A stretch of 36,385 nt of DNA from a virus. Below, in pieces: positions 3,840 through 30,340 of this stretch. A program made the position numbers and the translations under genes. The notes below the pieces were generated by a model that worked only from the letters and a program-made list of their open reading frames with translations, ran no database searches and had not been told where the DNA came from. The stretch spans positions 1-36,385 of the IMG/VR virus record IMGVR_UViG_3300010885_008196. One strand, written 5' to 3'. Positions within the stretch are counted from its first letter, which is position 1. Every line of letters begins with the position of its first letter.

Positions 3840-4220
3840 ATGTCATATTATGTTGGTGGTGATTTAAATTTAAATGATATTTTAGGAGAAGGTAATCCTA
3901 GATATTTTTACGGACTACGTAGGGACGATGACGGCGCATTGTATTTTACTAGAAACGATCAGCTTGGTACCAGTACTGCAATAACATTAAACGTAGCAGG
4001 ATCTAACGCAAATAATTTTGAAAATTTTGAATACGGTGTAGATTTCTTTGACGGTAGACTAGCAACAGATCATAGTCGTCCGTATCCTAATTTGTATTTT
4101 GATCAATATCGTTGGGATAATAAAAACTGTTTTTATTATCTAGATCAAGCGACCGGACAACTAGTAGTAAGAATAAATCAAGCATATACATATTCAGCAT
4201 CACAAATTATAAGTGCATAA
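3840..4220 (+). CDS. Conserved marine phage structural protein, function unknown
   Basis: A 126-residue protein with YYGLRRDDDG-type N-terminal features (FYGLRRDDDGALYF), a central ENFEYGVDFFDGR and a C-terminal LYFDQYRWDNKNCFYY. I recall similar small proteins next to fiber genes in marine T4-like phages, where they are annotated only as structural or hypothetical. It is rich in aromatic and Asp residues, unlike its Ser/Thr-rich neighbours. There is no signal peptide or membrane segment. GGA lies 7 bases before the ATG. It could be an adaptor between the tail and a fiber; that is inference from its place between fiber genes. Confidence 0.65.
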   Translation: MSYYVGGDLNLNDILGEGNPRYFYGLRRDDDGALYFTRNDQLGTSTAITLNVAGSNANNFENFEYGVDFFDGRLATDHSRPYPNLYFDQYRWDNKNCFYYLDQATGQLVVRINQAYTYSASQIISA

Positions 4221-4238: not shown

Positions 4239-7200
4239 ATGGCAGCAGAATTTAAAATTGGTAGACTAAGATTTACATGGGCTGGACAATGGTCCACCGC
4301 AGTTACCTATGCACGTGATAATGTAATACAGTATAATGGTAAAGTTTATGCGTGTCTAACACCGCATACTTCATCTAGTTTTTACAATGATATTAATGTT
4401 TTAAAATATTGGAATTTAATTGCAGAAGGTAAAACATGGATAGGTCCTTGGGTATCATCTACTAGTTACTCGCTTGGTAACTTGGTCAGTTATGGTGGCG
4501 AAATATATACCTGTACTACTCCTAATAATGATAGCACGTTTACATCTAGTAAATGGACTACCTGGACATTATTTGATAAATGGAATAATGCCTGGGCACC
4601 AAACTACGCCTACGGAGTTGGTGACGTTGTCAAATATGGCGGTATTGTCTATCGCTGTAACCTAAATCATATTTCTGCAACTTACGTAACTCCTACATAT
4701 TTAGGATTAGAAAACGATCAAAGTAAATGGACCGTGGTCGACAGTGGCTATGAATATAAAGGAGCATGGACAGCTCTTACAAGATATAAACAAAATGATC
4801 TAGTAAAAGTTGGACCAAATGTCTATCAATGTTCGACATATCATACCTCATCATCACTATTCGCTTCATCAAATTGGACCATGTGGATTCCTGGTGTTGA
4901 AACCGTATCTACATATAATAGCAGTACATACTATCAAGTAGGTGATGAAGTTAGCTATGGTGGTTACAATTATGTTAGCAAAACTTCTAACAATTATGGT
5001 AACACACCATCAACTGACGGCGGAACTAATTGGACATTATTAGATACCGGTTATGGGATCAAGGGTATATGGACTGGCGGATTATCTGTAAAAGTTGGAG
5101 ATATAGTTCAACGAAACGGTCAATTATTCATAGCTACTGCTGATAATAATTCAGTAGACCCATCAAGTGCAATTATATCAACAACCTATACGTCTTCAGG
5201 AAGTTCTGGTACAACATTGAAAGTGGCTTCTACAAGTAATCTAGCAATAGGAATGGTATTAAACGGAGTTGGTTTTACACAAGGACAAACTGTTGTTAGT
5301 GTTGTTGACTCTACCACTATATTATTAAATGCAGGTCCTAACGGATCTCCAGTAAACGGGCAATCATTAACATTTGCCGGAGTAACTGCGACTTCATGGC
5401 AATTATTAGTATCGGGCAATTACTGGACCAATCGTTGGGTTTCAGCTTCATCGTATGTGGTTGGCGATATAGTAACATGGCAAACTTTCACCTATAGCTG
5501 TGTGCAAAATCATACAGCACTGACCGCCAACCGTCCAGATAATGATACTGCTCGTGCATACTGGCAGTATGTTATCGCTCAAGCTCAGAAAAATTCTTCA
5601 ACATCAACTGGCGATCTTCAATACTATTCTTCAACCACAGGAAAATACACAGCCTTGCCAATAGGTACTGATGGATATGCATTACGAGTAAATTCTACAA
5701 CTCCGTCATGGGCAAAATTAAATGTATCACCCTCATTGTACTATGTTTCAACCAACGGAATTGATCGTAGTGATTACGGAACAAACTGGGACCAGCCCTG
5801 GAAAACTATACAATATGCCGTAGGTGTATTAAGAAACGGAACTCAAAATCCCAATGCAGTTGCCTTGTTAAATGCAAATAAATCTTGGATTCTAGCTGAA
5901 ATGTTGCAGTGGGCGATTTATCAAGTTGCTAATAATTTGACACCATTTTCAACAACCTATTCATTAGATCAAACAAAGACTACTAGAGATGCTGGCTATA
6001 TTATTGATGCAATAGTATATGATATAGGTCGTGGAGGTAACAGCCAAACAGTTGCCGCTGCCACAGCATATTTTGCCTACGGTAGTACAAATACATTTTT
6101 TAGTACAGCAGTTGCCGCAGATGTTCCATTCTACTTACCTATCTTAAATAGATTATTAGTATTGATAACTAATGCATTAAATCAAACGTCGCCCGGAACT
6201 AGCTATCAAACATTAAACAATACACCAACTCCTGCGACTCAGACAATTGGACAAACTGCGGCTGAAGGTGCCGCGGTAACAACAGTAACTTCGTTATTTT
6301 CTATAATAACACTTTCTTTAACTAATCAAAATACCTCATATATTCCTTCAGCTAATACTGGACTTACTGCGACTATAATGGTTAAAACAGGAACATACTC
6401 AGAAGCATTGCCTATCACAGTTCCTGAAAACGTTGCTATCAACGGAGATGAACTTCGTGGAGTAGTAGTTCAACCAGCTGTGATCATTAATACAGTTGCA
6501 ACAGGTTGTACTACAAGTTTAATTACGGTAGTCACTACCGCAGGTATGACAGCAAACTGTCCAGTACAATTTGGTACTAGTATTGGCGGACTAACGGCCG
6601 CAACAACATATTATGTTATAGGTAGTAGTATTACAGGTACACAATTTAGTGTGAGCCTTACTTCTGGCGGTGCAACACCTATACAGCTTACAGCAACTAC
6701 TAATAAATCAATAACAGTCTATGGCGGTGATGCCGTTAAGAATATGTTTTTATTGCGAAATGGTTCTGGATTACGTAATATGAGTTTAACCGGATTACTT
6801 GGATTCTTACAAGCCGCTGACACATACGGAATTCAAAGACCAAGTGGCGGTGCATATTCAAGTCTAGATCCAGGAACAGGACCTAATGATACCACAGCTT
6901 GGATATTCCGTCGCTCACCTTATTGCCAAAATATCAGTATGTTTGGAATTGGTTGTACAGGTTTGAAGATTGACGGAACTCTCCATAACGGTGGCAACAA
7001 ATCTATTGTTTCTAACGACTACACGACAATTATCAGCGATGGCATTGGCATATGGTGTACCGGTAGTGGTGCATTAACTGAAGCAGTTTCGGTGTTTAAC
7101 TATTATGGTTATATGGGATACTTTGCCGAGAATGGTGGACGTATGCGAGCAACTAATGGTAACTCATCATATGGTACATATGGTTGCGTAGCGTTAGGGT

Positions 7201-10200
7201 TTGACCTAACTGAAGCGGCAGCTACTGGAATTGTATTCAATAGATCACAACAAATACAAGCGTCAGTGCAGAGTAGTCTAGGATCAACAAGCCAGTTAAT
7301 CAAATTGAACTATGCAAATGCAGGAAATAGTTATACAACAAGTACAACTAATTTATTAAATTATAGCAATTTATTTACAGCTGGCTGGGCTACTGATAGT
7401 AATGTAACATTGCAAAAAAATATTTTATCATTAACAGGCTATACTGAAGCATGGACTTTAACCGGTACTACTTCAGGAACAGATGGAAGTTATATCTATC
7501 AAAATATTGCTATACCGGCAGCCGGTGGTGTTTATACCAACGTTCCGGGAACCACTATTACAGGTAGCGGAAGCTCGGCAACATTCGATGTTACTGTAAC
7601 TAGCACAGCATATACCGTGGTAGTTAATCAGGGTGGCTCTAACTATGCGACAACTAATATTATCAATATTTCAGGATCAGTATTTGGTGGTATTGCAGGT
7701 ACTAATGATTTAACATTGACTGTATATTCTTTATCAGGCAGTTCAATAACTAGTGTTACTGTAAGCGGAACCGTTCCAACATCGGCTGCTCAAAGCTATA
7801 CTTGCAGTTTATATGTATATGCTGGAACATCATCTAATATCGATCTTTATGCAATATTTTCAGGATCTAGCACAAGAACTAGTTCTTTAAACTATAATTT
7901 TACAACAGGATCTAAAACCCCGTCAAGTGCTAACAGCGGATTTTTACCAATCAACTACGGTGTACAATCTACAACAGTTACTGGATGGTATAGAATGTGG
8001 ATGGCGGTAAACGACACAACTGGACAAAATACACAGTTACAATTTAGAATATATCCAAGAGGATATTCTGCAGGAACTGCTAATCAAACGTCAATAGTAT
8101 ATGGAGCACAAGTAGAATTATCTACAAGTACGTTTAGTCCAAGTTTTTACTTAGAAACACAACAGACCAGATATACTTCTTATGCAAACTTCCAAGTAGT
8201 TGGCTCAGGATCTAGTGCATATCTACTAGGTGATGAAACAAGATCGGGTAGTGTATTTGAATCTAGAGTTATAGATTCTGGATCAGGTGCAGGCGGTAAC
8301 GGATACCTAACAGCAAGCAATAATGCACAGGCTGGAAATGCTACACAGATTACATTGGCTCAGTCTGATGTAAGATTACCAAGTAACTATGTTACCATGA
8401 GATTGTTTATTAATAGTGGTACAGGTGCAGGACAGTACGGATATATTAGCAGTTTCAATAGCACTACTAAAGTTGCTACTATTTTAAGAGAATCGTTTGA
8501 TGTGGTCCCGCTTGGCAGTTGTACAACTTCGTCATTTACAGTTGTATCAAATATTGATAGTTTGTATAGCGGATTGGCCATACAATTTGTCCCGACATAC
8601 TATACAGTATTGATAACAGGTACAAATTTAGGCCAACAGACCGTTACATCAATACAGACTGCTGTTATTAATAATTCAATAACTAGCACATTGACTGTGT
8701 CTAATGCCTATGCATTTTACATCAATATGCCTATTAATTTTACAGGCACTATTTTTACCTCACTATCATCAGGCTATACATATTATGTTCAGTCAATCGT
8801 TGATGCTACTACCATAACAGTTTCATTAACTATTTCTGGAACATCAATATTCTTGACTACCGGAACTGGATCGTTCACATTAAATTATCCAACAAACATT
8901 GGAGCACTGTCAGGAACTTCAATTACTAGTAATATGGTTGTTAATTTACCGATCACGTTCACAGGATCAGCATTAGGCGGAGTCAGTGTTGGTACAGCAT
9001 ATTATATTCAAGATGTTATCGATGCCAATTCATTTACGATAACCAGTAATTTAATAACAGTGACGCCAACAGCGGCCTCTACAACGGCATTTACAGTAGT
9101 ATCGTCGACAAGTTTAATACCAATGAATCCAATAGTATTTTCTGGTACACCATTTGGTGGAGTTTCAACAGGACAAAAATATTATATTGCAAGCCTACCA
9201 AATACAACATCATTTACGATTGCATCAACATTACTAACAGTAACAGTTAACAGAACATATTCGGGATCAAATCTTATACAAATTGATCAATCAGTTGCGT
9301 TCTTTGTGGCAAATCAACCCATTATATTTTATGGAAATACATTTGGTGGCATACTTAAAGAACATGTATACTATATACTAGCCATTGACACTGGTGCTAA
9401 TACCTTTACAATTTGTGACGTAGCACCAAATTCACAACCATACAATCTAAGTGCTGTCTTTCCTGCAACTGGTGTGATGTATGCAAGAACTTGCGGAACT
9501 ACAACAACGCTAACTGCTGGTTCGGGATCAATGACTGGCACGAGCTCTGGAAGTAGATTTACATTGAGTCAAGGATCCGGCACTATGAATGGCACATTCT
9601 CAACAGTGTTATTTGGCGGAGTTACCCAGGGAACAACCTATTATATTGACACTGTTACTTCAACTACTGTATCAATCAAAGACGTTAGCAATGCTCCGAT
9701 TACGCTGATCACTGGCGCAGGTTCCATGAACATAGGTGCTGTAGGATGGGATCATGTGGTTCCAGGAACTCCTATTTTATCTTTACTTGACAATTCAAGT
9801 TTATACTTTATAGAGCCAAGATTACAATATGCAGATCCCGCATTTACGCAAACAACAGCCGCTGCCCCATACACACTAACACTAGGCACATACAATGGTA
9901 TGGCATATGGTGCAGGATACTTCATTGCAATACCGTCAGGCGGTGCCCAAGCCGCAAGATCATTAGACGGAAGCAGTTGGACTGCGCTGTCTTTACCGGC
10001 AGCCAAGTCGTGGACCGGTATAACCTACGGTGCCGGATATTTTGTAATGATTGCAGGAACAACATTTAGCGGAGATAATTCTGTATTATATTCTGCAAAC
10101 AACGGTAATGGATGGAGATCCTCAACACTACCTGTAAGTTCTAACTGGAAAGCAGTGACCTATGGCAATGGTACATTTGTAGCAGTAGCTAATGGTACAG

Positions 10201-12425
10201 CATACAGTGCATATAGCACAAACTTTGGCCAGACATGGACACAGTCTACAATAAAAGGTAAAAAAACTGCAACTGTATTTGGTACTGCAAAACTTAGCAC
10301 AACACAAAAACAATTTGGCGCAACAAGTTTAGCACTAAATGGTACAACAGATTATATTACATTCGCTACCAGTACTGATTTTGGATTTGGTACCGGTGAC
10401 TTTACTGTTGAAGGATTCTTCTACCATACGACTGGTGGAGTATTCCATAGCTTGTTTGATTTTAGAACATTGGCTACAGAAGTATCTGTATTTTTAGCAG
10501 TAAACGCAAGTGATAAGATTTACTTGTATGTAAATGGTTCAGTAGTAACTACAACTACTGCCAGTTTACCGCTTAATGCTTGGACACATGTGGCACTAGT
10601 AAGATCGTCAGGAACTACTTCAATTTATGTTAATGGAACACAATCTGGAACTCCTTATTCAGATACAAATGATTACGGTTCTACTAAACTATTAAGTATA
10701 GGAGCAGATCGCGCAGGCGCCAATTTCTTCCCAGGATATATTGATGAAGTTAGGATTAGTAAGGCTACTGCTAGATATACAACAACCTTTACTTTACCGA
10801 CACTAGCTTTTGTACCTGATGCACAAACTTCATTGCTATTAAACTTTGATGGGTTAAACAATAGTACTATAATCACAACCTCAGAATCATGGACCAGCGT
10901 AGCTTATGGTTCTGGATTATTTGTTGCTATCACCACTGCATCTAACACTGCCGCATATAGCACAGATGGTATAACATGGACAGCAACTACATTACCATCA
11001 ACTACATCATGGTCTAGTATAACTTATGGTAATGGAAGATTTGTAGTAGTATCAAGTGCTACAGGTCCAGCTGTAGCATCTGCCTATAGCTTCAATGGAA
11101 CAACATGGTACAGTTCTAATATAGGAATCACCAGTACACAGGTGATTTACGGGCAAGGAGTTTTCCTAGCAGTAAATTCTAGTAATGTTAACGCATATAC
11201 CAGTGAAGAGGGTCTTAACTGGAAATTAAGAACAGTATCAACCTCAGTATACAGTGCAGGTGCGTATGGTGTGGTACTATCAACCGGAGCAGGCGCCTTT
11301 GCATTACTAGGCGGAGCTTCGACAGGCAGTAGTATAACAACTGGAGTCAGAACCAAAGGTAGACCAAGTATTAATACAAATGTGCTGAATTCTATTAGCC
11401 ATTGGGAACCGGGATCTGGTTATACTTTTACGCCTACACTTACTATTACCGACCCTAACGTTACGGTATTGGCCAGTATAGTACCTAGACTAGGAAACGG
11501 TTCATTAGGTGGCCCAACATTTATTAATCGAGGCACTGGTTATAATAATACTTCAACTGTTATTAATATTGCAGGAAATGGATACTCTGATGCGTATCAA
11601 ACAGGATACACTATCATCTTAAATAATATGTCAAGACTGCCGTTAGTTGGTGATAATTTAACTATTTCGGGAATTCCTCAAATTTATAAAGTAACAAGCG
11701 CATCTCCTATGTACGGAACCACAGCTCCTAACATAGAAGCTAATGTACAGATATCGCCTGCTATGACAACATTATTATCACCAACTAACGGCACTACTGT
11801 ATCAGTAAGAACAAAATACAGTCAAGTACGCTTAACTGGACATGACTTCTTGTACATCGGTACTGGAAATCAATCTGTAACAAACTATCCTTCAGGCGTC
11901 TCTATCAATAATGCACTTGCAGGCAATCAAACAGTTGAATTAAACTATGGTCGTGTATTTTTTACAAGTACTGACCAAGATGGTAACTTTAAAGTTGGTA
12001 ACTTATTTGGAGTTCAGCAGGCAACTGGTATTGTAACATTAAGTGCTAGCCAGTTTGGCCTAAGCGGTCTAAGCACATTGAGCCTGGGTGGTGTGGCTCT
12101 AGGATCGTCGGGTGTGGTTATTCAAGGATTTAGCACAGACGGTACTTTTACAGCTAATACTGATAGTGTTATTCCAACACAAAAAGCTATCAAAACTTAC
12201 CTAACTAGTAGATTAACACAGGGTGGTTCCAACACTACTACAGGACAATTGACAGCTGGTACTATAGTATTAGGAAATGCAACATTTATCGCATCAACTA
12301 TCACAAACGGCTTGTCAGGGTCGTCTGTTAAAATGCAAAGTAAAGTGTATATAAATGCTAACGGAGTTGATGGAAACATGGCAGCTTTAGATTTCTTCAT
12401 TAGAAATGCAAGACGCTCTAGCTAA
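4239..12425 (+). CDS. Giant modular tail fiber protein A (2728 residues)
   Basis: A very long Ser/Thr/Gly-rich protein that shares its backbone with the 3601-residue protein downstream. In order: seven carbohydrate-binding-like W/Y-GD-V modules (residues ~10-437); a fiber connector LPIGTDGYALRV; a YYVSTNGID segment that opens a right-handed beta-helix-like region (~500); one RDAGY helical repeat (~582); a VKTGTYSEALPITVP strand block (~715); the conserved helix core NMFLLRN to FNRSQQ (835-1006); a jelly-roll-like domain ending VYGAQVE (~1040-1307); a tandem array of TYYV modules (~1470-1832); propeller-type repeats (AYGxGxF, ~1880-2360) split by a LamG-like domain (~2004-2205); and a conserved C-terminal domain (~2525-2728) with DQDGNFKVGNLF and PTQKAIK. 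AAGGA precedes the ATG. A host-binding long fiber is likely; receptor and trimerisation are not readable. Confidence 0.85.
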   Translation: MAAEFKIGRLRFTWAGQWSTAVTYARDNVIQYNGKVYACLTPHTSSSFYNDINVLKYWNLIAEGKTWIGPWVSSTSYSLGNLVSYGGEIYTCTTPNNDSTFTSSKWTTWTLFDKWNNAWAPNYAYGVGDVVKYGGIVYRCNLNHISATYVTPTYLGLENDQSKWTVVDSGYEYKGAWTALTRYKQNDLVKVGPNVYQCSTYHTSSSLFASSNWTMWIPGVETVSTYNSSTYYQVGDEVSYGGYNYVSKTSNNYGNTPSTDGGTNWTLLDTGYGIKGIWTGGLSVKVGDIVQRNGQLFIATADNNSVDPSSAIISTTYTSSGSSGTTLKVASTSNLAIGMVLNGVGFTQGQTVVSVVDSTTILLNAGPNGSPVNGQSLTFAGVTATSWQLLVSGNYWTNRWVSASSYVVGDIVTWQTFTYSCVQNHTALTANRPDNDTARAYWQYVIAQAQKNSSTSTGDLQYYSSTTGKYTALPIGTDGYALRVNSTTPSWAKLNVSPSLYYVSTNGIDRSDYGTNWDQPWKTIQYAVGVLRNGTQNPNAVALLNANKSWILAEMLQWAIYQVANNLTPFSTTYSLDQTKTTRDAGYIIDAIVYDIGRGGNSQTVAAATAYFAYGSTNTFFSTAVAADVPFYLPILNRLLVLITNALNQTSPGTSYQTLNNTPTPATQTIGQTAAEGAAVTTVTSLFSIITLSLTNQNTSYIPSANTGLTATIMVKTGTYSEALPITVPENVAINGDELRGVVVQPAVIINTVATGCTTSLITVVTTAGMTANCPVQFGTSIGGLTAATTYYVIGSSITGTQFSVSLTSGGATPIQLTATTNKSITVYGGDAVKNMFLLRNGSGLRNMSLTGLLGFLQAADTYGIQRPSGGAYSSLDPGTGPNDTTAWIFRRSPYCQNISMFGIGCTGLKIDGTLHNGGNKSIVSNDYTTIISDGIGIWCTGSGALTEAVSVFNYYGYMGYFAENGGRMRATNGNSSYGTYGCVALGFDLTEAAATGIVFNRSQQIQASVQSSLGSTSQLIKLNYANAGNSYTTSTTNLLNYSNLFTAGWATDSNVTLQKNILSLTGYTEAWTLTGTTSGTDGSYIYQNIAIPAAGGVYTNVPGTTITGSGSSATFDVTVTSTAYTVVVNQGGSNYATTNIINISGSVFGGIAGTNDLTLTVYSLSGSSITSVTVSGTVPTSAAQSYTCSLYVYAGTSSNIDLYAIFSGSSTRTSSLNYNFTTGSKTPSSANSGFLPINYGVQSTTVTGWYRMWMAVNDTTGQNTQLQFRIYPRGYSAGTANQTSIVYGAQVELSTSTFSPSFYLETQQTRYTSYANFQVVGSGSSAYLLGDETRSGSVFESRVIDSGSGAGGNGYLTASNNAQAGNATQITLAQSDVRLPSNYVTMRLFINSGTGAGQYGYISSFNSTTKVATILRESFDVVPLGSCTTSSFTVVSNIDSLYSGLAIQFVPTYYTVLITGTNLGQQTVTSIQTAVINNSITSTLTVSNAYAFYINMPINFTGTIFTSLSSGYTYYVQSIVDATTITVSLTISGTSIFLTTGTGSFTLNYPTNIGALSGTSITSNMVVNLPITFTGSALGGVSVGTAYYIQDVIDANSFTITSNLITVTPTAASTTAFTVVSSTSLIPMNPIVFSGTPFGGVSTGQKYYIASLPNTTSFTIASTLLTVTVNRTYSGSNLIQIDQSVAFFVANQPIIFYGNTFGGILKEHVYYILAIDTGANTFTICDVAPNSQPYNLSAVFPATGVMYARTCGTTTTLTAGSGSMTGTSSGSRFTLSQGSGTMNGTFSTVLFGGVTQGTTYYIDTVTSTTVSIKDVSNAPITLITGAGSMNIGAVGWDHVVPGTPILSLLDNSSLYFIEPRLQYADPAFTQTTAAAPYTLTLGTYNGMAYGAGYFIAIPSGGAQAARSLDGSSWTALSLPAAKSWTGITYGAGYFVMIAGTTFSGDNSVLYSANNGNGWRSSTLPVSSNWKAVTYGNGTFVAVANGTAYSAYSTNFGQTWTQSTIKGKKTATVFGTAKLSTTQKQFGATSLALNGTTDYITFATSTDFGFGTGDFTVEGFFYHTTGGVFHSLFDFRTLATEVSVFLAVNASDKIYLYVNGSVVTTTTASLPLNAWTHVALVRSSGTTSIYVNGTQSGTPYSDTNDYGSTKLLSIGADRAGANFFPGYIDEVRISKATARYTTTFTLPTLAFVPDAQTSLLLNFDGLNNSTIITTSESWTSVAYGSGLFVAITTASNTAAYSTDGITWTATTLPSTTSWSSITYGNGRFVVVSSATGPAVASAYSFNGTTWYSSNIGITSTQVIYGQGVFLAVNSSNVNAYTSEEGLNWKLRTVSTSVYSAGAYGVVLSTGAGAFALLGGASTGSSITTGVRTKGRPSINTNVLNSISHWEPGSGYTFTPTLTITDPNVTVLASIVPRLGNGSLGGPTFINRGTGYNNTSTVINIAGNGYSDAYQTGYTIILNNMSRLPLVGDNLTISGIPQIYKVTSASPMYGTTAPNIEANVQISPAMTTLLSPTNGTTVSVRTKYSQVRLTGHDFLYIGTGNQSVTNYPSGVSINNALAGNQTVELNYGRVFFTSTDQDGNFKVGNLFGVQQATGIVTLSASQFGLSGLSTLSLGGVALGSSGVVIQGFSTDGTFTANTDSVIPTQKAIKTYLTSRLTQGGSNTTTGQLTAGTIVLGNATFIASTITNGLSGSSVKMQSKVYINANGVDGNMAALDFFIRNARRSS
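4269..5550 (+). repeat. Seven tandem carbohydrate-binding-like modules in giant A
   Basis: Each module of about 45-55 residues follows W-x(7-9)-Y-x-x-GD-x-V-x-Y-x-G-x-x-Y-x-C/A, as in SYSLGNLVSYGGEIYTC and AYGVGDVVKYGGIVYRC. The pattern resembles chitin-binding type 3 (CBM5/12-like) modules, which suggests glycan binding. The sixth and seventh modules are separated by an ~85-residue beta-rich insertion. Family assignment is by pattern and has not been checked by a profile search. Confidence 0.65.
8640..9735 (+). repeat. Tandem TYYV modules in giant A
   Basis: About five successive copies of a ~65-residue unit, with some divergence: a hydrophobic strand, NxPIxFTG, FGGVxxGTxYYIxxI, then SFTI strands. 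Examples are PIVFSGTPFGGV and TAYYIQDVI. The array sits between a segment ending ILRESFDV and one beginning GWDHVVPG. The other giant protein has the same two flanks around only about two such units, so copy number differs between paralogues. Confidence 0.65.
10250..10855 (+). other. LamG/concanavalin-like domain inserted in a propeller (giant A)
   Basis: Residues ~2004-2205 of giant A contain FGATSLALNGTTDYITF, TGDFTVEGFF, AWTHVALVRSSGTTSIYV and GYIDEVRISKATARY, the hallmark series of the laminin-G-3/concanavalin-like lectin fold. Propeller-type repeats (W-x-x-V-x-YGxGxFVAV) lie on both sides, so the domain looks inserted within the propeller. The paralogue lacks it. A sugar-binding role is known for many members of the fold but is not shown here. 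Confidence 0.75.
11813..11857 (+). repeat. 45-base exact repeat, copy 1
   Basis: These 45 bases are identical to 22703-22747 at the start of the shared C-terminal fiber domain (encoding YSQVRLTGHDFLY). Flanking sequence in the two genes differs at many third codon positions, so this stretch of exact identity suggests recent recombination or gene conversion. Confidence 0.85.
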
Positions 12426-12444
12426 AAATGAAAATTTAAATTAA

Positions 12445-12453
12445 GATAAATAT
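12445..12453 (+). promoter_or_regulatory. T4-late-promoter-like box before giant B
   Basis: GATAAATAT lies between the two giant genes. Six bases beyond the last A of GATAAATA lies 12458, where the ribosome site AGAGGA begins; ATG 12474 follows. This would give a short, 16-base leader. Assigned by similarity to TATAAATA and placement. Confidence 0.5.
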
Positions 12454-12473
12454 TATCAGAGGAACAGAATAAA

Positions 12474-15400: not shown

Positions 15401-18400
15401 AACATTGATCGGAAATGTATTAGCTAATTCTACTCCAAGTAGCAATTATCAAACATTAAATAGTGTCAGTGTTGGAAATCAAGCTATTCAAATTAAAGAT
15501 ACTACCATTCCTGCTGAAACAGGAACTACAAGTTCTGCACAAAATTTAATAGCCATTCTTACAAGCGCATTAAATGCCGGTAATACTAATGCTGTTCCTA
15601 CAGCACAAAACCCTAATACAACAATATTTGTTAAAACAGGAACATTCAACGAAGTATTGCCAATTGTTGTTCCAGCGTATACCGCAGTAGTCGGCGACGA
15701 GCTTCGTTCAACAGTAGTACAGCCACTAACAGCCAATAATTATCTAGTTAATGATAAACCAAAATCAATCGCCGCAATGACTCGATTGAAAGCAGTATTA
15801 TCTAATTTAATTAGCAATACTGTTGTTACTGCTACAACCGGTAATACCCAAGTTTTATCAGTAACTACATCTAGTGGATCAGCAGGAACTGCAACATTAA
15901 CATTTGCAACACAACCGTCAGCACCATTTACTGTAGGTCAATATATAACAGTCAGCGGATTTACTGGCGGTGCGAGTGGATATAATGCTAGTGCTGTTGT
16001 AACTGCTTGTACAGCAAATAGTGTAAGTTATGCTAATGCTACTACAGCCGCATCAGCAGGTACTCCGATAGTTTCAAGTCAAGTAACTGGATTATCAGCA
16101 GGCGATACTGGCAGTTCGGCAGCAGTGACTAGTGTGATTAATAATACCGTTGCTATGCAACAGATTATTCAAAACGGCATTAGTCAAGCACCTGCATTTA
16201 GTTTTACTAACCCAACAGGATATAATGCAACATATCTAGTTGGCTATGGCGACGGTAAAGCACAGATTGTTAACAACTATGCATTTATCAAGGCGGATGT
16301 TGCAAACTATTTTGCTAATACTGGAACTACTGCTGGCACAAGCACAGTATCAGCAGTATGGGCGGCATTGACATCGGCACAACAAGCAAACTTTTATGTA
16401 CAAGTTAATAATATTTTAGATGCTGTACAGTATGATATGACTTACGGTACTAATACACAAAGTCAAATTATCGGAAGCAACTATTATTCGTACGGTGTTA
16501 GCCAATTAACCGCTAACCAAAGAGCCGCATATGCGATTGTTTATGCGTTCTTACAAACTACCCTAAACAATATCATTACTAAGGCTGTGATTAGTCCACA
16601 GTCGGGTAACGTATTGACCACTAGTTATCTAACAACTGCTGGTTCGGCAGCAAGCGGTAGTTTTGCACAAGCTCGTGTTGGTGATGTTATCTATTGGATC
16701 AATAATGGTGTCGCTGACACAACTTCTGCAACGTTTACAGGAACAATTTCAACAACCACGCTTTCAGTCAGCGGTGTTACAGGTACGATTAAGATTGGAC
16801 AAATTGTAACAGGCGGTACAGTAGCTGCCGGTACTTATATTACAGCAGGATCGGGCGCAAGTTGGACTGTCAGTGTAAGCCAATCCGCTACCGCTACCGG
16901 CTCGACAATGACAATTACTCCTATAACGTCAGGAGCATATGCCCTAGCTAGCTCAGCACTACAAACTGCGTATACCGCAGTTATAGCTAGACAAGCTGAA
17001 GTTCAAGCTGACGCAGTTGGTTGGGTACAGAAATTTTATCAAACAATGAGTTTTACATCATCAACATGTTACCGTGATGCAGGATACGTTGTGCAAGCAC
17101 TAGCATATGACCTAGTGCTAGGTACCAATGCAGGCAGTATTATTGCGGCTCGTCAGTATTATAATGGTACGACCAGCGCGGCAGTTGTCACAGCTAATCA
17201 GTTGTCTGCAGAAGTTGGCTCAATAGGATTTATCGGAGCAAAAGTTAAATTGATCGCAGCCAGCGGCACAGTTACTCAAACCAGTGCTATGATAGATGAT
17301 GCTATCGCTTATATAAATGGACAAGTTTCGTTTACAACAGTTACTGCCGCAAGTACAAGTGGAACACAAACAACAGCATATACTACCAGTGATGTGATTA
17401 CAGTCACTTCGGGATCACAGACTGCTACATTTACTCCTACCTTGACTACTGCAACTACTGGGTTGTCAATCCTTAGTGTCACAGCAGGTGGTATTGCAAC
17501 ATTTAGTTCAACCATTACAGTAATACGTGGACAATCAGTAACTGTACCAGTAGCAAGCGGTGGAATGAATAATGGAACATACTTTGTAACATCAAGTGCT
17601 GCCAATACAACATCAGTAACATTAAGTTCTAGTTATGCTAATGCTATCTCAGGCACTATCGCATCATTCACCGGCGGCTCAGTGGTTGGTGCTACTAGTA
17701 ACGTATCTATTGGTTCAACTTATAATTCTGTTGCTTCAGTAAGTGTTGCAACAGGTGGAACATGGACTTCGTTAGTAACAACTGCACAAAATACTTCTCC
17801 AAGTGTAAGCTCAGGTTCGGGACTAACACTAACGCTAAACTATGGCGCAAGCACATACTCAACTTCTTTAACAACTGCTACTACAAGTACAAATGTACTT
17901 ACAGTAGGAAGTACTGCGGGAATGAGTGTAGGCATGCCGATATCGTTCACTAGTTTGCCAGCAAATTTAACCAAGACTGCAACTGCTATTTCTAGCAATG
18001 CTATAACTTTAAATAACGTTACCAGTTTAATTGTAAATCAACCGATATATTTTACAGGCCTAGTGTTTGGCGGCATTAATGCTAATCAGACATACTATGT
18101 TCAATCAATTGTAAGTAGTACAATTACTATTAGTACAACAGTTGGTGGAAGTGCATTGACCCTAACTAACGTAGCTAGTGGATCAATGACTGCAACTATT
18201 AATACTGCCAGCGGACTAGTTGCTGGAAACAAATATTTTATTGCATCAATTCCATCAACAACAACATTAACAATTACAACAACCAGTGGTGGAAGTGCAT
18301 TTGTGCTAGGCAATACTGTCAGCTTGACAGCATTGGCTACAGCAGGAGCTACTCCTGAAACAGTTGGTACAATAACATACAATAACAATAGAACCTTAAT

Positions 18401-21400
18401 ACAGGGCGCTGAAATTTTACGTGCTAATAAAACATTCCTAGCATATGAGCTTGCCGCATATACATCAGCAACTTACGGCTGGAGTGTAACTTCTACTACA
18501 GCCTCAACTGGACGATATAATACAAGTGCCGCACATAATTTTGTAGTAGGCGACCCGATTGTATTCTCTGGAACAGCTATTGCTAGTAGCGGAATTACAA
18601 CAGGCACGGTATATTACATACTAGCTGTACCAACAACAACATCATTTACACTGACTGCAACTCAGTTTTCATCAACTGCTGTGACTATCACAGCTGACGG
18701 TACTGGTTCGATGACTGCAACTTACTATTATAATCTTGCTAAATGTGTTCGTGATTCTAGTGCATATATTGATGCACTGGTATATGATTTACAATTTACA
18801 GGTAACTACAAAATTACCAGAGCCGCACAGCTTTATAATAATGCAGTTAGTGGATCTTTACTCAGTAACATGTTCTTACTGCGTAATTCTACAGGTATAC
18901 GCAATATGACATTGAGCGGGCTAAGTGGATATCTAACAGCCGCTAATCAATATGGTACAAAACGTCCAACAGCAGGTGCATATTCAAGTTTAGATCCAGG
19001 ATTTGGAGCAACTGATACCAACGCATGGATCACAGCAAGAAGTCCATATACACAAAACGTTACTATGTTTGGTTATGCATGTAGTGGCATGAAGATTGAC
19101 GGTGCATTACATGCTGGTGGTAATAGAAGTATTGTTGCTAACGACTATACAACTATTATCGGTGACGGTATCGGAGTATGGTGTACTGGTTCAAACTCAT
19201 TAACTGAATTAGTTTCAGTGTTTAACTACTATGGCTATGCTGGATATCTTGCAGAACTAGGCGGACGTATGCGAGCAACCAACGGTAACTCATCATATGG
19301 TACTTATGGTGTAGTTGCTGAAGGTGTTGACACTTACGAAGCTCCAATTTATGCAAACCTAAATAATCGTGCTAATCCAGCATATGTTACAAACGTAGTA
19401 ACAGATGGAACTAATCTTGTATACCGTGTAGAATATGCCAATGCTGGACAGGGATATACTAACGCTGTTCCTAGTATTAGCGGTAGCGGATATAATTCTG
19501 TAGCAGTCGCTGATGAACTCAGAGATGCTGGTTTATTTGAAACTCGTATTATCGACCTAAATGACGGTAACGGTTCTGGCGGTAGCAATTATGTGTCAGT
19601 TAGTAACACAGGACAACAGAGTAGCATAGGTAACATGTTGATCGCGGCTACTGATATTGCAATCACTGGCGCATATAACGGCATGCGAGTTCAAACTACT
19701 GCTGGTACTGGTGCCGCACAATATGCAAATATTTTAAGTTATAGTAGCAGTAAGACAGCATTGATCGTTAAAGATACATTTGCTCCTGTTGTAATTACCG
19801 CAACCGCAACTAGCAATAGTTTATTAACTGTAGCAAGTACTGCAACGTTGTATGTAGGTATGCCTGTCTATTTTGCCACAGCTCCAGGAAGTTTGTTGGC
19901 CAATCAACTATATTATGTAATCGCAGCCAACTTTTCAGCGACACAGTTTGCTGTAAGTACCGCATCTGGCGGCTCTGCTCAAACACCCGGCACTAATGCT
20001 GGTGTAACTATTACTGTTACTGCAACTGCAACAACAAATAATTTAATTACGGCTACGAATACCCTGACAGCAGGACAAGCAATAACATTTAGCAGTAGCT
20101 TTAATGGTATCTTTACTGGTGTTACATATTTTGTACAAAGTGCAAACTTAACTACGGCATCATTTAGTGTAACTAGATATTTCCCTAACGGTCCTACCGA
20201 GATTATCAGTGCTACTGGTAGTGCAAGTTCAACCGGTACTGTTGGTACAGCAATGTTTGCCGCAGGTTGGGATCATACTATCCAAGGTACAGCAGTTTCT
20301 AACATTCCAGACTTGACAACAAGTTATATTATCGAACCGAGAGTCGTTTATAGCACCCCGGGCTACACAGCCACAGCTAGATCATTGGTTGGTTCTAATA
20401 CCTGGACCGCAGTTACTTATGGTAACGGAAACTATGTGGCAGTGGCAAGTGCCGGTACCGCAACAAACTATTCAGCAGACGGCAAGACTTGGTCAACAGG
20501 TAGTGCTCTTCCAAGCTCAACAACTTGGATTGATGTAGTCTATGGTGGTGGTCAAGGTGCTACTGCTACAGCAATCGTGGGTGGTTTGGGTGGTTTGGGT
20601 GCAAGTTTAACAGCCGCATTGGGCACTGGCTCACAAGCTACACAAGTAGTCAGTGTTACAATCGTCAACGGCGGTACAGGATACTCAACTCCGCCTAACA
20701 TTTTGTTTACAGGTGGTGGTGGTACAGGAGCAACTGCAACATGTACAGTGTTGAATGGTACGATTACCAGCGTAACTGTAACTATTCCAGGAAGTGGATA
20801 CAGTTCTGCACCGACTGCTACTGCCAATACTAGCACATTGAATAGTATTACAATGAATACATGGGGCAAGAATTATACTTCAGCGCCAACCGTGACAGTT
20901 AGCTATCCACAAGGACTTACACCAACTGTATTTGCCACAACAACATCTTATGCAAGTCTTGCATATCTAGTAACTGCGGCTGGTAATATCTACCAAGTGA
21001 CAGCAGGTGGTGGTGGTAATTCGGGTTCTACCGTACCAAGCCATACTAGTGGTTCAGCAACTAACGGTGCCTTAACACTTACATATGTTGCTACACAAGC
21101 ACAAGCAACTGCATCATTATCTAATGGCGGTGTTTATGCATTAACTATTAGCAATTATGGTTATGGATATACAGCTACACCAACTATTACATTCAGTGAT
21201 AGTGGTGTAAGTACAGGTCCTAGATATGTCGCAGTAAGCGGTGCAAGTACAGCATCAGCTTACCTATTAGCTACTAGTTCATTAAGTGCAACGCCATGGA
21301 CTGCTGGTGGAACACTACCAAGCTCAAATATTCAAAGTATTGCCTATGGTAGTGGTGTATATGTAGTAGTCGGAGGTGCAAGCGCAACTGGTGTAATTGC

Positions 21401-23279
21401 ATCAAGTACAGATGCTACAAGTTGGACTTCAAGAACTAGCCCTACATTAAGTGCAGGTTCATGGTCTAGCGTAACCTATGGTGCAGGATACTTTGTGGCA
21501 GTTAACACAGGTGGAAACTTAACAGCCGCAAGTTCAAATGGTACTGTTTGGAATTCAATCACAGGCGGAGTACTCCCAGCATCAACTGCTTGGACCAGTG
21601 TTGCATATGGTAACGGCAGATTTGTTGCACTAGCAGTAAACGGAGCGGTAGCTTATCAGTTTATCACTGCATTAACTAGCGCATGGATCGCAACGCCTAC
21701 ATCAACTGGTACAACTACAAGTATATTAAGTTCAAGTTTTACATGGAGCAAGATTACTTATGGTGAAGGCTTGTTTATGGCTATTGCTAAAGGTACAACA
21801 GTATGCGCAACCAGCCCAGACGGTATTAATTGGACACTACAAGCTATGCCAAGTTCAAGCAACTGGCAAGGTCTTACATTTGGTAACGTAGTAAGTACAA
21901 CAATTGGCGCACAACCGTTATTTGTTGCAGTAAGCAATACCAGTGGAACTGTAGCGGCTAGCATACGTACTGGTGCAACTTCACAAGGTCGTGTAAAAGT
22001 TGCAAGCAATGCAGTCACTGAAATCCGTACACTCGATCCAGGTAGCGGATATGCAAAAGGTAACATTACAACCACTACTACAAGTTTAATTACTGCTGAT
22101 GATACAACTAATTTGTCGCAGAACTTGGCCAATAATCAACCAATAGAATTTACTGGTTTAGATAGTTATGGATTAGTAACTAACACAACGTATTATGTTA
22201 TCGGTTCAACCGTAACAAGTTCACAATTCAGCGTGTCAGCAACTGCTGGTGGTACAACACCAGTGACTCTAACTGCTGGCTCTAGTTTGACCGGTACATA
22301 TCGTGGCGCGCCGGTTGCTTACATAATTGATCCTAATAAAGTTATAAGTGTGTCAACTCGTCAACGTATGGGTGATGGTGCATTAGCTAACCCTAGCTTT
22401 ACTAATAGAGGAACATTAAATGCTACCGCTACTGCCAGTGTTGTAGGCGACGGATTCAGTGATTTATTCCAAGTTGGTACATACGTAAACGTATTAGGAT
22501 TATATGCCCAGCCTACAGCAGGCGCTAACGTACAATTTGCAAGTATCACAGGTAATGCACAGTGGTATAAACTAGTTAGTGTATCTAACTTCCTACCGGG
22601 AACTGGAATTTATCAGGGATTATATTCAGCAACATTCCAGATTAATCCTTCGTTAACTGTATACAACGCACCAGTTCATGCTACATTAATCACTACAAGA
22701 TTAAAATACAGTCAAGTACGCTTAACTGGACATGACTTCTTGTACATTGGTACTGGTAATCAGACCAAGACCAACTACCCATATGTGGATCCAACTACAG
22801 CTATCAGTGCAAATCAAGCTAATAGTTCAGGTGGCGGACGAGTATTCTTTACAAGTACTGACCAAGATGGTAACTTCAACGTGGGTAACTTGTTTAACGT
22901 TAAACAGGCAACTGGTACAGCTACCTTGAACGCTAACGCATTTAACTTGAGTGGTTTACAGAGCTTGACATTGACAAGTTTGAGTGTGGGAAATGCTACA
23001 ATTACGCAATTTAGTACAGATCCGTACTTTACAGCTAATAGTGACAACATAGTTCCGACACAAAAAGCTATTAAGAGCTATATTACTGCCCAAATAGGTG
23101 GCGGTGCGAGTGCTTTGAACGTAAATACATTGACAGCCGGTCAGATTGAAGTGGGCGTAAAAGGTCCTAATATTATTACAAATAGTACTGGAAATCAGAT
23201 TAACGTAAGTTCAAAGATGAACTTTACAGGCGGAATAGATGGAGCACCAGTTGCCCTTGTATTCTTTGGACAACGATAA
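12474..23279 (+). CDS. Giant modular tail fiber protein B (3601 residues)
   Basis: Paralogue of giant A with the same backbone and more insertions. It has seven W/Y-GD-V carbohydrate-binding-like modules (residues ~10-700, the last split by an inserted module); the connector LPIGTDGQVLRV (~736); VVYVGPTGVD (~763); four RDAGY-type helical repeats (~920, ~1314, ~1533, ~2090); FVKTGTFNEVLPIVVP (~1050); the helix core NMFLLRN to NLNNR (2132-2300); two TYYV modules; propeller repeats from ~2636 interrupted by a ~220-residue insertion (~2694-2915); and the conserved C-terminal domain (~3410-3601) with DQDGNFNVGNLF and PTQKAIK. AGAGGA precedes the ATG. No premature stop or frameshift was seen over 10.8 kb. 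A host-binding fiber role is inferred from modules and context. Confidence 0.85.
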   Translation: MAEYKLGRIKFVYQGTWTTSTAYVVDDVVTVGGKTYICTVSNTSAATFAADLASNYWSKFADGNNWRGAWANGAFYNPGDLVQYGGTVYNANTGHTSTASTALIVATGFTVSGGTATLTYATQAIQPFLVGATITLSGFLPTATSTPSNVNASFTVLTCTTTQLAFSLSGTYTVSALGTVSGASQLGLEADQSKWDTFSTTFNWSNAWTTNTRYKVKDLVSYGGYTYVCKNAHVSANTATLGLETDSSNWDTFNAGIAYQGQWSGSSVRYKLNDIVTYGADLWICTTQHTSSTTFNASNFAIFVNGLQFESSWSTGTVYQIGDLVTYGGNTYAAIQNHSSQVPSTATAYWQPFTTGFNFRGDWLVTNTYRIGDVARLGSYTYVATADNTQQIVAGIATTISSDGTRPNQITLAGNITITGASVTSTTATLTYATQTQIPFVAGQTIVVAGVTNTAYNGTFIVTGTPSTSQVQYTLTGSPASSSGGTVSGTTANLVAGLPIVMSGTTFGGIVSGTTYYVYATPPDSTHFVLASSPANVGTVPFTITSTASGSMTGTTNPTPPFSTYWSRLNSGIRWNGASASYTAVSATNVTGSGTSATFNVTTSGTAYSVTVNAGGSGYTYQNIIKILGTSVGGISPANDITLTLTAGGTGPVSTFTFTGYAVTWVTGTSYVLGDSVYFGANSYICVNAHIGTSGNRPDADTTATYWNLLASGAESASLTTQGDIFYFGANGPTRLPIGTDGQVLRVSSSTPAWNYYGNINNVVYVGPTGVDSVGLGQGLSIDKPWLTVRYAAKQVEDGYLNANARDLLTKNKQFILKEVSNYVTYTYKASVTGTSAGAFLTASTAGLSVGMPITFTAQTGSLTITAASILSTTVYYVQSIVTNTSFTVASSYGGSALTAAGTGTATVQYYTSLSSEIERDAGYVLDGVIFDISHGGTLKTVTNTRAYFNTSGSTYTNTAVQSQVVPFVGAQNYMSTLIGNVLANSTPSSNYQTLNSVSVGNQAIQIKDTTIPAETGTTSSAQNLIAILTSALNAGNTNAVPTAQNPNTTIFVKTGTFNEVLPIVVPAYTAVVGDELRSTVVQPLTANNYLVNDKPKSIAAMTRLKAVLSNLISNTVVTATTGNTQVLSVTTSSGSAGTATLTFATQPSAPFTVGQYITVSGFTGGASGYNASAVVTACTANSVSYANATTAASAGTPIVSSQVTGLSAGDTGSSAAVTSVINNTVAMQQIIQNGISQAPAFSFTNPTGYNATYLVGYGDGKAQIVNNYAFIKADVANYFANTGTTAGTSTVSAVWAALTSAQQANFYVQVNNILDAVQYDMTYGTNTQSQIIGSNYYSYGVSQLTANQRAAYAIVYAFLQTTLNNIITKAVISPQSGNVLTTSYLTTAGSAASGSFAQARVGDVIYWINNGVADTTSATFTGTISTTTLSVSGVTGTIKIGQIVTGGTVAAGTYITAGSGASWTVSVSQSATATGSTMTITPITSGAYALASSALQTAYTAVIARQAEVQADAVGWVQKFYQTMSFTSSTCYRDAGYVVQALAYDLVLGTNAGSIIAARQYYNGTTSAAVVTANQLSAEVGSIGFIGAKVKLIAASGTVTQTSAMIDDAIAYINGQVSFTTVTAASTSGTQTTAYTTSDVITVTSGSQTATFTPTLTTATTGLSILSVTAGGIATFSSTITVIRGQSVTVPVASGGMNNGTYFVTSSAANTTSVTLSSSYANAISGTIASFTGGSVVGATSNVSIGSTYNSVASVSVATGGTWTSLVTTAQNTSPSVSSGSGLTLTLNYGASTYSTSLTTATTSTNVLTVGSTAGMSVGMPISFTSLPANLTKTATAISSNAITLNNVTSLIVNQPIYFTGLVFGGINANQTYYVQSIVSSTITISTTVGGSALTLTNVASGSMTATINTASGLVAGNKYFIASIPSTTTLTITTTSGGSAFVLGNTVSLTALATAGATPETVGTITYNNNRTLIQGAEILRANKTFLAYELAAYTSATYGWSVTSTTASTGRYNTSAAHNFVVGDPIVFSGTAIASSGITTGTVYYILAVPTTTSFTLTATQFSSTAVTITADGTGSMTATYYYNLAKCVRDSSAYIDALVYDLQFTGNYKITRAAQLYNNAVSGSLLSNMFLLRNSTGIRNMTLSGLSGYLTAANQYGTKRPTAGAYSSLDPGFGATDTNAWITARSPYTQNVTMFGYACSGMKIDGALHAGGNRSIVANDYTTIIGDGIGVWCTGSNSLTELVSVFNYYGYAGYLAELGGRMRATNGNSSYGTYGVVAEGVDTYEAPIYANLNNRANPAYVTNVVTDGTNLVYRVEYANAGQGYTNAVPSISGSGYNSVAVADELRDAGLFETRIIDLNDGNGSGGSNYVSVSNTGQQSSIGNMLIAATDIAITGAYNGMRVQTTAGTGAAQYANILSYSSSKTALIVKDTFAPVVITATATSNSLLTVASTATLYVGMPVYFATAPGSLLANQLYYVIAANFSATQFAVSTASGGSAQTPGTNAGVTITVTATATTNNLITATNTLTAGQAITFSSSFNGIFTGVTYFVQSANLTTASFSVTRYFPNGPTEIISATGSASSTGTVGTAMFAAGWDHTIQGTAVSNIPDLTTSYIIEPRVVYSTPGYTATARSLVGSNTWTAVTYGNGNYVAVASAGTATNYSADGKTWSTGSALPSSTTWIDVVYGGGQGATATAIVGGLGGLGASLTAALGTGSQATQVVSVTIVNGGTGYSTPPNILFTGGGGTGATATCTVLNGTITSVTVTIPGSGYSSAPTATANTSTLNSITMNTWGKNYTSAPTVTVSYPQGLTPTVFATTTSYASLAYLVTAAGNIYQVTAGGGGNSGSTVPSHTSGSATNGALTLTYVATQAQATASLSNGGVYALTISNYGYGYTATPTITFSDSGVSTGPRYVAVSGASTASAYLLATSSLSATPWTAGGTLPSSNIQSIAYGSGVYVVVGGASATGVIASSTDATSWTSRTSPTLSAGSWSSVTYGAGYFVAVNTGGNLTAASSNGTVWNSITGGVLPASTAWTSVAYGNGRFVALAVNGAVAYQFITALTSAWIATPTSTGTTTSILSSSFTWSKITYGEGLFMAIAKGTTVCATSPDGINWTLQAMPSSSNWQGLTFGNVVSTTIGAQPLFVAVSNTSGTVAASIRTGATSQGRVKVASNAVTEIRTLDPGSGYAKGNITTTTTSLITADDTTNLSQNLANNQPIEFTGLDSYGLVTNTTYYVIGSTVTSSQFSVSATAGGTTPVTLTAGSSLTGTYRGAPVAYIIDPNKVISVSTRQRMGDGALANPSFTNRGTLNATATASVVGDGFSDLFQVGTYVNVLGLYAQPTAGANVQFASITGNAQWYKLVSVSNFLPGTGIYQGLYSATFQINPSLTVYNAPVHATLITTRLKYSQVRLTGHDFLYIGTGNQTKTNYPYVDPTTAISANQANSSGGGRVFFTSTDQDGNFNVGNLFNVKQATGTATLNANAFNLSGLQSLTLTSLSVGNATITQFSTDPYFTANSDNIVPTQKAIKSYITAQIGGGASALNVNTLTAGQIEVGVKGPNIITNSTGNQINVSSKMNFTGGIDGAPVALVFFGQR
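12504..14580 (+). repeat. Seven carbohydrate-binding-like modules in giant B, with insertions
   Basis: The seven modules follow the same pattern as in giant A (for example AFYNPGDLVQYGGTVY, RYKLNDIVTYGADLW and SYVLGDSVYFGANSY). Module 2 is followed by an inserted TYATQ-type unit (12796-13020) before LGLEADQSKW, a segment that in giant A follows its third module almost directly. Modules 6 and 7 are separated by a TYATQ unit, a TYYV unit and a GSG-SATF unit (about 13735-14460). Confidence 0.65.
14209..14460 (+). repeat. GSG-SATF module copy in giant B (second copy at 7525-7790)
   Basis: An ~80-residue unit with TGSGTSATFNVT, VNAGGSGY, NIIKI and NDITLTL. Giant A has a clearly related unit at 7525-7790 (TGSGSSATFDVT, VNQGGSNY, NIINI, NDLTLTV). 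Here it interrupts the start of the seventh W/Y-GD-V module, between WNGA and VTWVTGTSYVLGD. In giant A it interrupts a jelly-roll-like domain. The same unit in two unrelated surroundings points to module insertion. Confidence 0.7.
14893..18850 (+). repeat. Four dispersed RDAGY helical repeats in giant B
   Basis: Helical units with a NKxFIxxE helix and then RDAGYxxDAxxYDxxxGxN. The motif cores lie near 15231 (RDAGYVLDGVIFDISHGG), 16415 (ILDAVQYDMTYGTN), 17070 (YRDAGYVVQALAYDLVLG) and 18743 (VRDSSAYIDALVYDLQF). Giant A has one, near 5984 (RDAGYIIDAIVYDIGRGG). In copies 1 and 4 a TYYV module sits between the two helices. I have seen similar segments in marine phage fibers, but no function is known to me. 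Confidence 0.65.
19795..20250 (+). repeat. Two TYYV modules in giant B at the site of the giant A array
   Basis: Two units with VGMPVYFATAPG then LYYVIAANF, and AGQAITFSSSFNG then TYFVQSANL. They lie between LIVKDTFAPVV and AGWDHTIQG, the same backbone flanks that bracket the longer array in giant A. Other single copies in giant B lie near 13940-14130, 14960-15200, 17880-18310, 18490-18720 and 22075-22300. Confidence 0.6.
20551..21222 (+). other. ~220-residue insertion in the giant B propeller (GxGYxxxP repeats)
   Basis: Between VVYGGG and RYVAVSGAS, which together would form one normal propeller blade, lies an inserted stretch with GGTGYSTPPNILF, GSGYSSAPTAT and YGYGYTATPTITF. These GxGYxxxPxxxF/T repeats are a beta-rich unit common in phage fibers. 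Giant A carries a LamG-like domain in its own propeller instead. Confidence 0.65.
22703..22747 (+). repeat. 45-base exact repeat, copy 2
   Basis: Identical to 11813-11857. A shorter exact match follows about 100 bases downstream in both genes, around the codons for FTSTDQDGNF. The repeats are direct and about 10.9 kb apart. Confidence 0.85.
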
Positions 23280-27165: not shown

Positions 27166-27166
27166 C

Positions 27167-30339: not shown

Positions 30340-30340
30340 A

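Follow-up and report, generated by a model that had tools for sequence, protein, structure and literature searches.

Adjacent giant paralogues of a putative phage tail fiber suggest recurrent in-frame insertion of small domains into a shared backbone

Results and Discussion

A Gene Cluster with Two Giant Fiber Paralogues

The window, i.e., the whole stretch of 36,385 bases that was analyzed, carries a tail-fiber gene cluster on its plus strand, and as contigs of the same clade reach up to 270 kb, we judge the record to be a fragment. The cluster includes two adjacent giant genes, whose products we call protein A (P1) and protein B (P2), and two smaller upstream genes, encoding proteins C and D.

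117-1655, plus strand: upstream open reading frame (ORF) of the cluster
1791-3275, plus strand: protein C, 494 aa
2670-2825 and 2829-3020, plus strand: two type III modules of C (E 2e-15 and 3e-5)
3279-3830, plus strand: protein D, 183 aa, a 110-aa tail protein plus one module II (E 2e-21)
3324-3551, plus strand: module II insert of D, about aa 16-91
3840-4220, plus strand: ORF between D and A
4239-12425, plus strand: protein A, giant tail-fiber paralogue, 2728 aa (PHROG 9851 'tail fiber protein', E 4e-127, four stretches)
12474-23279, plus strand: protein B, second giant tail-fiber paralogue, 3601 aa (PHROG 9851, E 2e-133, five stretches)
24897-25925: glycine-rich protein after the fibers, 342 aa (PHROG 2295, unknown function)

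The PHROG 9851 profile matches A and B across most of the family length, and we infer from this family name and from the gene neighbors that both proteins are tail fibers. Downstream of them lie small tail proteins and then the glycine-rich protein, which we presume may be the adhesin tip. The minus strand encodes neck and sheath-associated proteins (PHROG profiles), and one of these is related to its counterparts in jumbo phages, for example Atu_ph07 and PA5oct. The gene order of a large protein, a protein of ~150 aa, a protein of ~130 aa and the fiber is identical in the cyanophages S-CAM1 and S-SSM7, whose fibers have the same upstream neighbors as those of the window. No reverse transcriptase was detected among the Pfam-scanned ORFs, which are a subset of the ORFs of this fragmentary record. 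Positions 25949-31725 are occupied by a series of 2OG-Fe(II) oxygenase-like genes that surround a tryptophan halogenase (27532-28989); a similar oxygenase run adjoins the fiber genes of pelagiphage Mosig. The paper on moraphages, a new aquatic jumbo-phage lineage, gave no match to these proteins in a term search (PMC12619734).

A and B Share One Backbone

An earlier note, made from the sequence alone, had proposed that the two proteins share a series of landmarks in one order, and every motif could be located in both proteins in that order (positions in A / B): LPIGTDG (473 / 736), RDAGY (583 / 920, with two further copies in B at 1534 and, as RDSSAY, at 2093), KTGTxxExLPI (716 / 1054), the beta-helix motif NGNSSYGTYG (973 / 2270), GWDH (1836 / 2598), NRG (2430 / 3311), DQDGNF (2579 / 3463) and PTQKAIK (2646 / 3528). 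The seven W/Y-GD-V modules claimed for each protein were likewise recovered with a profile of the unit (module V), which found seven copies in A and seven in B. This unit is Pfam CBM_5_12 (PF02839; E 1e-26 and 2e-22), scoring 92.7 and 79.1 bits against a Pfam cut-off of 26.2. The backbone runs from the CBM5/12-like stalk modules through the LPIGTDG connector to the beta-helix core, and on through the GWDH segment, the beta-propeller and the NRG segment to the conserved C terminus.

A profile-profile alignment of A and B runs end to end over 1945 columns, of which 759 are identical (39% identity), and BLASTP gave several colinear blocks (E 8e-72, 2e-30, 2e-29 and 8e-26), so that the similarity is significant over the entire length rather than confined to the C terminus. 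It reaches 57-67% identity in the beta-helix core, which is also common to cyanophage fibers. Alignment gaps of at least 25 aa leave 706 aa private to A and 1541 aa private to B, and most gaps correspond to recognizable modules. The net contribution of these gaps is 835 aa of the 873-aa length difference, which bears out the suggestion that insertions account for most of it. The main features of the two proteins are as follows, with I-IV denoting the module families defined below.

Protein A
4290-5642, plus strand: seven CBM5/12-like W/Y-GD-V modules, aa 18-468 (Pfam CBM_5_12, module V profile)
6492-6707, plus strand: module I, aa 752-823, immediately before the beta-helix core (profile E 4e-19)
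6714-7298, plus strand: beta-helix core, aa 826-1020 (alignment with B)
7341-8183, plus strand: 281-aa stretch missing from B, aa 1035-1315 (alignment gap)
7533-7769, plus strand: module IV within this 281-aa stretch (profile E 6e-26)
8667-9734, plus strand: type I modules in a row, aa 1477-1832, retained by most A orthologues (profile)
9816-11288, plus strand: beta-propeller, about aa 1860-2350 (AlphaFold, Foldseek)
10308-10889, plus strand: laminin-G (LamG) cassette, aa 2024-2217, between two propeller blades (Pfam Laminin_G_3, E 1e-21)
11766-12422, plus strand: conserved C terminus

Protein B
12522-14654, plus strand: seven CBM5/12-like modules, aa 17-727 (Pfam, profile, AlphaFold pLDDT 87.5)
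12807-13019, plus strand: module II, aa 112-182, within the second CBM5/12-like module (profile E 4e-22)
13743-13940, plus strand: module II, aa 424-489 (profile E 2e-20)
13911-14132, plus strand: module I, aa 480-553 (profile E 1e-15)
14214-14453, plus strand: module IV, aa 581-660 (profile E 9e-28)
14967-15197, plus strand: module I, aa 832-908 (profile E 5e-14)
15837-18503, plus strand: 889-aa stretch missing from A, aa 1122-2010 (profile-alignment gap, motifs)
18870-19433, plus strand: beta-helix core, aa 2133-2320 (57-67% identity to A)
19794-20225, plus strand: two modules I, aa 2441-2584 (profile)
20391-21983, plus strand: propeller repeats, aa 2640-3170 (YGxG motifs, alignment with A)
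22062-22292, plus strand: module I, aa 3197-3273, where A has no module (profile E 1e-17)
22665-23276, plus strand: conserved C terminus (DQDGNF / PTQKAIK)

In the stalk of B, other modules are placed both between and within the CBM5/12-like units. The module II slot at aa 112-182 is occupied in 38 of 56 B orthologues, while module I at aa 480-553 is present in 27 of 56, with nine changes on the tree. The 889-aa stretch specific to B contains extra RDAGY-type units together with modules II (1136-1202), III (1421-1473) and I (1799-1951).

The Duplication Predates the Freshwater Clade

We collected relatives of A (155 stretches, of which 80 loci were kept, with A orthologues in about 80 loci) and relatives of the fiber C termini (at least 592, of which 80 were kept), and built an orthologue alignment set of 53 A and 56 B proteins, 109 in all. 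We use 'freshwater' and 'marine' as provisional labels, based on the named outgroups and on the titles of records. A and B are adjacent, with A first, in 80 of 89 viral loci, the intergenic gap being 27-77 nt, and B is longer than A in all 48 pairs compared. In the conserved core, the mean identity is 60% between A and B of the same genome, 69% among A proteins and 74% among B proteins, and falls to 41-43% between either of them and single-copy outgroups. In the tree, freshwater A genes group in a single clade (support 99/98), with freshwater B on the opposite side. As judged from these sequence comparisons, the A/B duplication is old and predates the whole freshwater clade.

Given the conserved pair and the tree, A and B of the window are not a before/after pair, as the earlier note had read them. 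Nor can A stand for the 'before' state, since it has 706 aa missing from B; both paralogues carry private inserts, and thus neither of them represents that state. Several of the A 'inserts', for example the type I row at aa 1477-1832, are moreover kept in 44-49 of the 53 A orthologues. What held up was the more general proposal of duplication and in-frame insertion at module borders or within domains, for which the genuine before/after evidence comes from orthologues and from the neighboring 110-aa tail protein.

Compact forms of the fiber exist outside the freshwater clade. A marine pair (L093/L094) measures 1641 + 1590 aa and, as searched in L093 with the module profiles, is without modules I-IV; another marine pair (L176) measures 1515 + 1976 aa. 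The placement of the marine A copies with A or with B is not firm (AU p 0.22). The single-copy fibers of S-CAM1 (1090 aa) and S-SSM7 (1477 aa) have no modules I-IV, and that of Mosig (1245 aa) has two modules IV and one weak module I match. L093 and L094 correspond to PBPT01000016.1 (335,231 bp) and PBPT01000082.1 (153,204 bp), which are binned as a Neomarinimicrobiota genome and are probably large phage contigs within a bacterial bin. In four loci one fiber gene appears as two ORFs, A in L016:9998-17645, L044:10001-18012 and L076:10001-18012 and B in L031:18741-28519, which may reflect a true split, a frameshift or an assembly error.

Four Module Families at Many Backbone Sites

In the orthologue alignments ~2400-2750 columns are filled in >80% of rows and thousands are filled in <20%. 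The catalogued inserts are mostly units of 65-95 aa, and iterated profiles built from several seeds define four families of modules of ~60-80 aa (profile lengths of 79, 65, 60 and 80 positions for I, II, III and IV, respectively); the CBM5/12-like unit and LamG were profiled as modules V and VI. At E < 1e-3, the 109 proteins contain 732 matches to I, 80 to II, 140 to III and 143 to IV. The same profiles found no match in reversed or locally shuffled copies of these proteins, which excludes composition as the cause of the matches. No Pfam family, including the Ig-like and BACON families, scored above its cut-off on modules I-IV, and some PHROG models of other virion proteins match modules III and IV. 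Among 50,697 records of named phages, type I had no match and type II had one, in a search whose low-complexity filter could conceal others. Profile comparison detected no similarity among types I, II and III (hhalign probabilities of 1-3%), so that a single sequence family is unsupported and treating the three as one kind of element rests on their size and behavior.

Modules I-IV are found at >70 backbone positions, many of which are occupied in just one or two genomes. The position clusters number 9, 8, 5 and 6 in A and 19, 10, 13 and 4 in B for types I, II, III and IV, respectively, and 13 of 31 bins in A and 19 of 47 in B are filled in just one or two of the 53-56 orthologues. Nearly all sites of types II and III have low occupancy. 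Several type I sites are filled in 44-55 orthologues, and at these widely filled sites the modules may be ancestral. At several sites, the type of module varies from genome to genome. Parsimony gives at most nine changes per site (type II at B 148; type I at B 508-518), and many sites require a single change for one or two genomes; gain and loss are not always distinguishable in these counts. Protein length increases with the number of modules (correlation r 0.86), at ~90 aa per module in B. In eight B proteins (from loci including L008, L009, L055 and L070), 398-1389 extra residues follow window aa 3103-3107; these contain many type I and III modules and are apparently a local amplification.

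A Laminin-G Cassette between Propeller Blades

The Laminin_G_3 match in A (PF13385, aa 2034-2175) scores 78 bits against a cut-off of 27.6. LamG occupies the same propeller slot in L023, L027 and L006, whereas the closely related L004, L058 and L001 lack it, the core identity of these three orthologue pairs being 82-86%. In most A orthologues this slot either is empty or has some other content. Elsewhere, the slot holds LamG in L084, module II instead in L012, L020, L025 and L086, and nothing in L015, L026 and L009. On the A tree, LamG requires five changes for five carriers at one site. No insertion was found at near-identical divergence among the orthologues compared, and the exact break points of LamG are not fixed, as the DNA of the plus/minus pairs is too diverged around the insert.

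Structure models were made for two regions, aa 1850-2440 of A and the first 760 residues of B, and the remaining inserts were judged from natural bare orthologues. In the A model (AlphaFold), the propeller blades on both sides of the insert have a pLDDT of ~95, and most of LamG lies between 65 and 89, joined by linkers of low confidence. Foldseek matched this model to many propellers with low whole-model TM-scores, the best being a sialidase (E 3.5e-9), that of Vibrio cholerae (PDB 6eks, 1w0o); at ~11% identity this is a likeness of fold only. The V. cholerae sialidase itself has a lectin domain inserted between its propeller blades. The strict Asp-box pattern has two relevant matches in A and none in B, and looser STDGxTW-like repeats can be made out on inspection. 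The N-terminal region of B is modeled with a mean pLDDT of 87.5, and module II (112-182) appears as a separate beta domain, mostly at pLDDT ~92, within the split second CBM5/12-like unit. PDB matches to this region include chitin-deacetylase CBMs, fiber or receptor-binding proteins of Agrobacterium phages Milano and 7-7-1 and, weakly, ubiquitin-activating enzymes; among viral models, the nearest are proteins of metagenomic phages that are named only by their domains. According to these predictions, both inserts tested, LamG and module II, are separate domains rather than integral parts of the surrounding fold.

Proteins D and C

The small tail protein D comes in quantised lengths and offers an ideal natural experiment, of minimal size, on the insertion of domains. 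Across 74 loci it is bare in 53 (108-118 aa), carries one module in 20 (182-198 aa) and two in one (266 aa, L086); a 136-aa entry that reads as the bare protein with an earlier start was counted as bare. At about residue 17, D holds type II in the window and in L045, L012, L008, L073, L024 and L002, type I in L064, L080 and L021, and both types in L086. A second point of D carries a type III-like insert in L001, L003, L004, L006, L023, L048, L053 and L084, and two of the three tested inserts (L003 and L001) match profile III significantly.

Longer relatives of protein C carry LamG domains, and since these occur in C-type proteins of several relatives, a possible source of the LamG cassette lies next door. 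In the C protein of the window, the two type III modules stand where relatives of the gene may have LamG. In the C-type proteins L013:7673-11692 and L069:1454-6406, outer LamG halves flank an inner complete LamG, so that one LamG appears to be nested in another.

Movement of Modules and Alternative Explanations

Several observations bear on the movement of modules between sites. Type II at the propeller site of A (2177) and at the stalk site of B (148) share up to 75-77% DNA identity over ~200 nt, and in the window 77 nt of module I at two different backbone sites are 71% identical (A 6603-6679, B 22185-22261). In L023, the 63 codons preceding LamG (1960-2023) are 84% identical to the distant L006 and 54% identical to the sister L004. 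Elsewhere in the gene L004 is nearer to L023 in every interval but a short one that follows the cassette. This resemblance of the flank to L006 rather than to L004 points to recombination at the border of the cassette. Between L023 and L006, DNA identity is 68% in the LamG cassette as compared with 84% in the 5' flank; cassette and flank may have moved separately, or LamG may evolve faster.

We propose that A and B represent old tandem paralogues of one phage tail-fiber family, into which self-folding beta modules (I-IV, ~60-80 aa) and the LamG cassette (~200 aa) would have been inserted in frame at domain borders and surface loops, many times and independently per lineage, not only in A and B but also in two neighboring virion genes. 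The modules may have spread by recombination among co-infecting phages, either through homologous exchange across shared backbone flanks or through ectopic in-frame joining, with local tandem amplification in addition. The inserts might project from the fiber and offer additional surfaces for binding glycans or polymers of the cell surface, which would widen or adjust adsorption. To this explanation as a whole we assign a probability of roughly 75%. Its historical part, the insertion of modules into an old backbone, appears highly probable, and an adhesion role of the inserted modules, predicted from their sequences, is somewhat favored. We consider it improbable that types I-III are dedicated mobile modules, interchangeable and recurrently placed at preferred points in several virion genes; if true, this aquatic phage lineage would possess a cassette system with which it keeps remodeling the surface of its tail.

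With respect to function, the modules could be neutral spacers that are tolerated in the loops of a long fiber and have no binding role, which would be compatible with the same insertion history. They have no known ligand, their sequence is of low complexity and rich in T, S and G, and their turnover is high. However, the modules retain conserved fold-defining residues in >1,000 recognizable copies, LamG and CBM5/12 belong to families with binding folds, and the insertions lie in virion surface proteins, although none of these points demonstrates selection. We regard neutral spacers as the less likely reading, but as a serious alternative.

It is improbable that the modules were made in place, by slippage or unequal crossing-over followed by divergence and without any movement. 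The adjacent type I row of A and the B site with up to 1389 extra residues in eight proteins may be explained in this way, and the BACON arrays of crAssphage largely grew so (PMC6949934), but singleton modules without a same-type neighbor are not, nor is the presence of the same types in C, D, A and B or of LamG at one site in five lineages. In addition, the DNA identity of type II between A and B is close to the backbone likeness between sister lineages.

Slightly less probable still is a module-rich ancestor of the freshwater clade with differential loss and little new insertion. The widely filled type I sites would agree with such an ancestor, and the change counts give no direction, but it is at odds with the many sites occupied in just one or two orthologues, with the occurrence of different module types at one site, with the predominance of bare D, and with the lack of modules in most outgroup fibers and in the compact marine pair. 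Finally, a recent duplication in this phage, with A as the pre-insertion state, would account for the adjacency, the identical domain order and the 63% identity in the conserved core, but is ruled out by the tree, which places A and B on opposite sides across lineages, and by the pair being conserved, and A moreover holds residues that B lacks.

Relation to Known Systems

Domain shuffling in phage adhesins and mobile tail-associated beta domains are already established (PMC10684548, PMC6949934). What is new here are four unannotated module families, with >1,000 occurrences in 109 proteins, and a resolved, quantised record of presence and absence in one gene cluster. Phage receptor-binding proteins show domain mosaicism and recent shuffling of fragments, with tail fibers and spikes prominent, in a pairwise survey over families in which tail fibers rarely had more than one ECOD domain (PMC10684548); the present data differ in that pairs of filled and empty sites are resolved within one orthologous family. 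Domain gain in large phage adhesins is usually inferred from distant mosaics, whereas this one family offers many natural pairs of this kind, and the effect of dropping a domain into a folded host protein is directly testable with small natural proteins.

The BACON repeats of crAss-like phages are tail-associated beta domains, acquired as individual units both through duplication and through horizontal transfer (PMC6949934). They form a single array, whereas the modules described here are dispersed over dozens of sites in four genes. Small Ig-like beta domains are spread among the virion genes of tailed phages, an earlier observation as cited in PMC6949934; the modules are likewise small beta domains in different virion genes, but they are not Ig-like by Pfam, are mostly interior, and are densely polymorphic between orthologues.

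Among the closest known systems are the fibers of T4-like cyanophages and pelagiphages (PHROG 9851; S-CAM1 SXBG_00229, S-SSM7 SSSM7_113 and Mosig_00063), which have the same backbone order and C terminus. In contrast to the two copies of 2728 and 3601 aa in the window, these fibers are encoded in one copy of 1090-1477 aa and lack types II and III. The family thus forms a series from compact to giant, from a single copy of 1090 aa through the pair of 1641 + 1590 aa to the pair of 2728 + 3601 aa.
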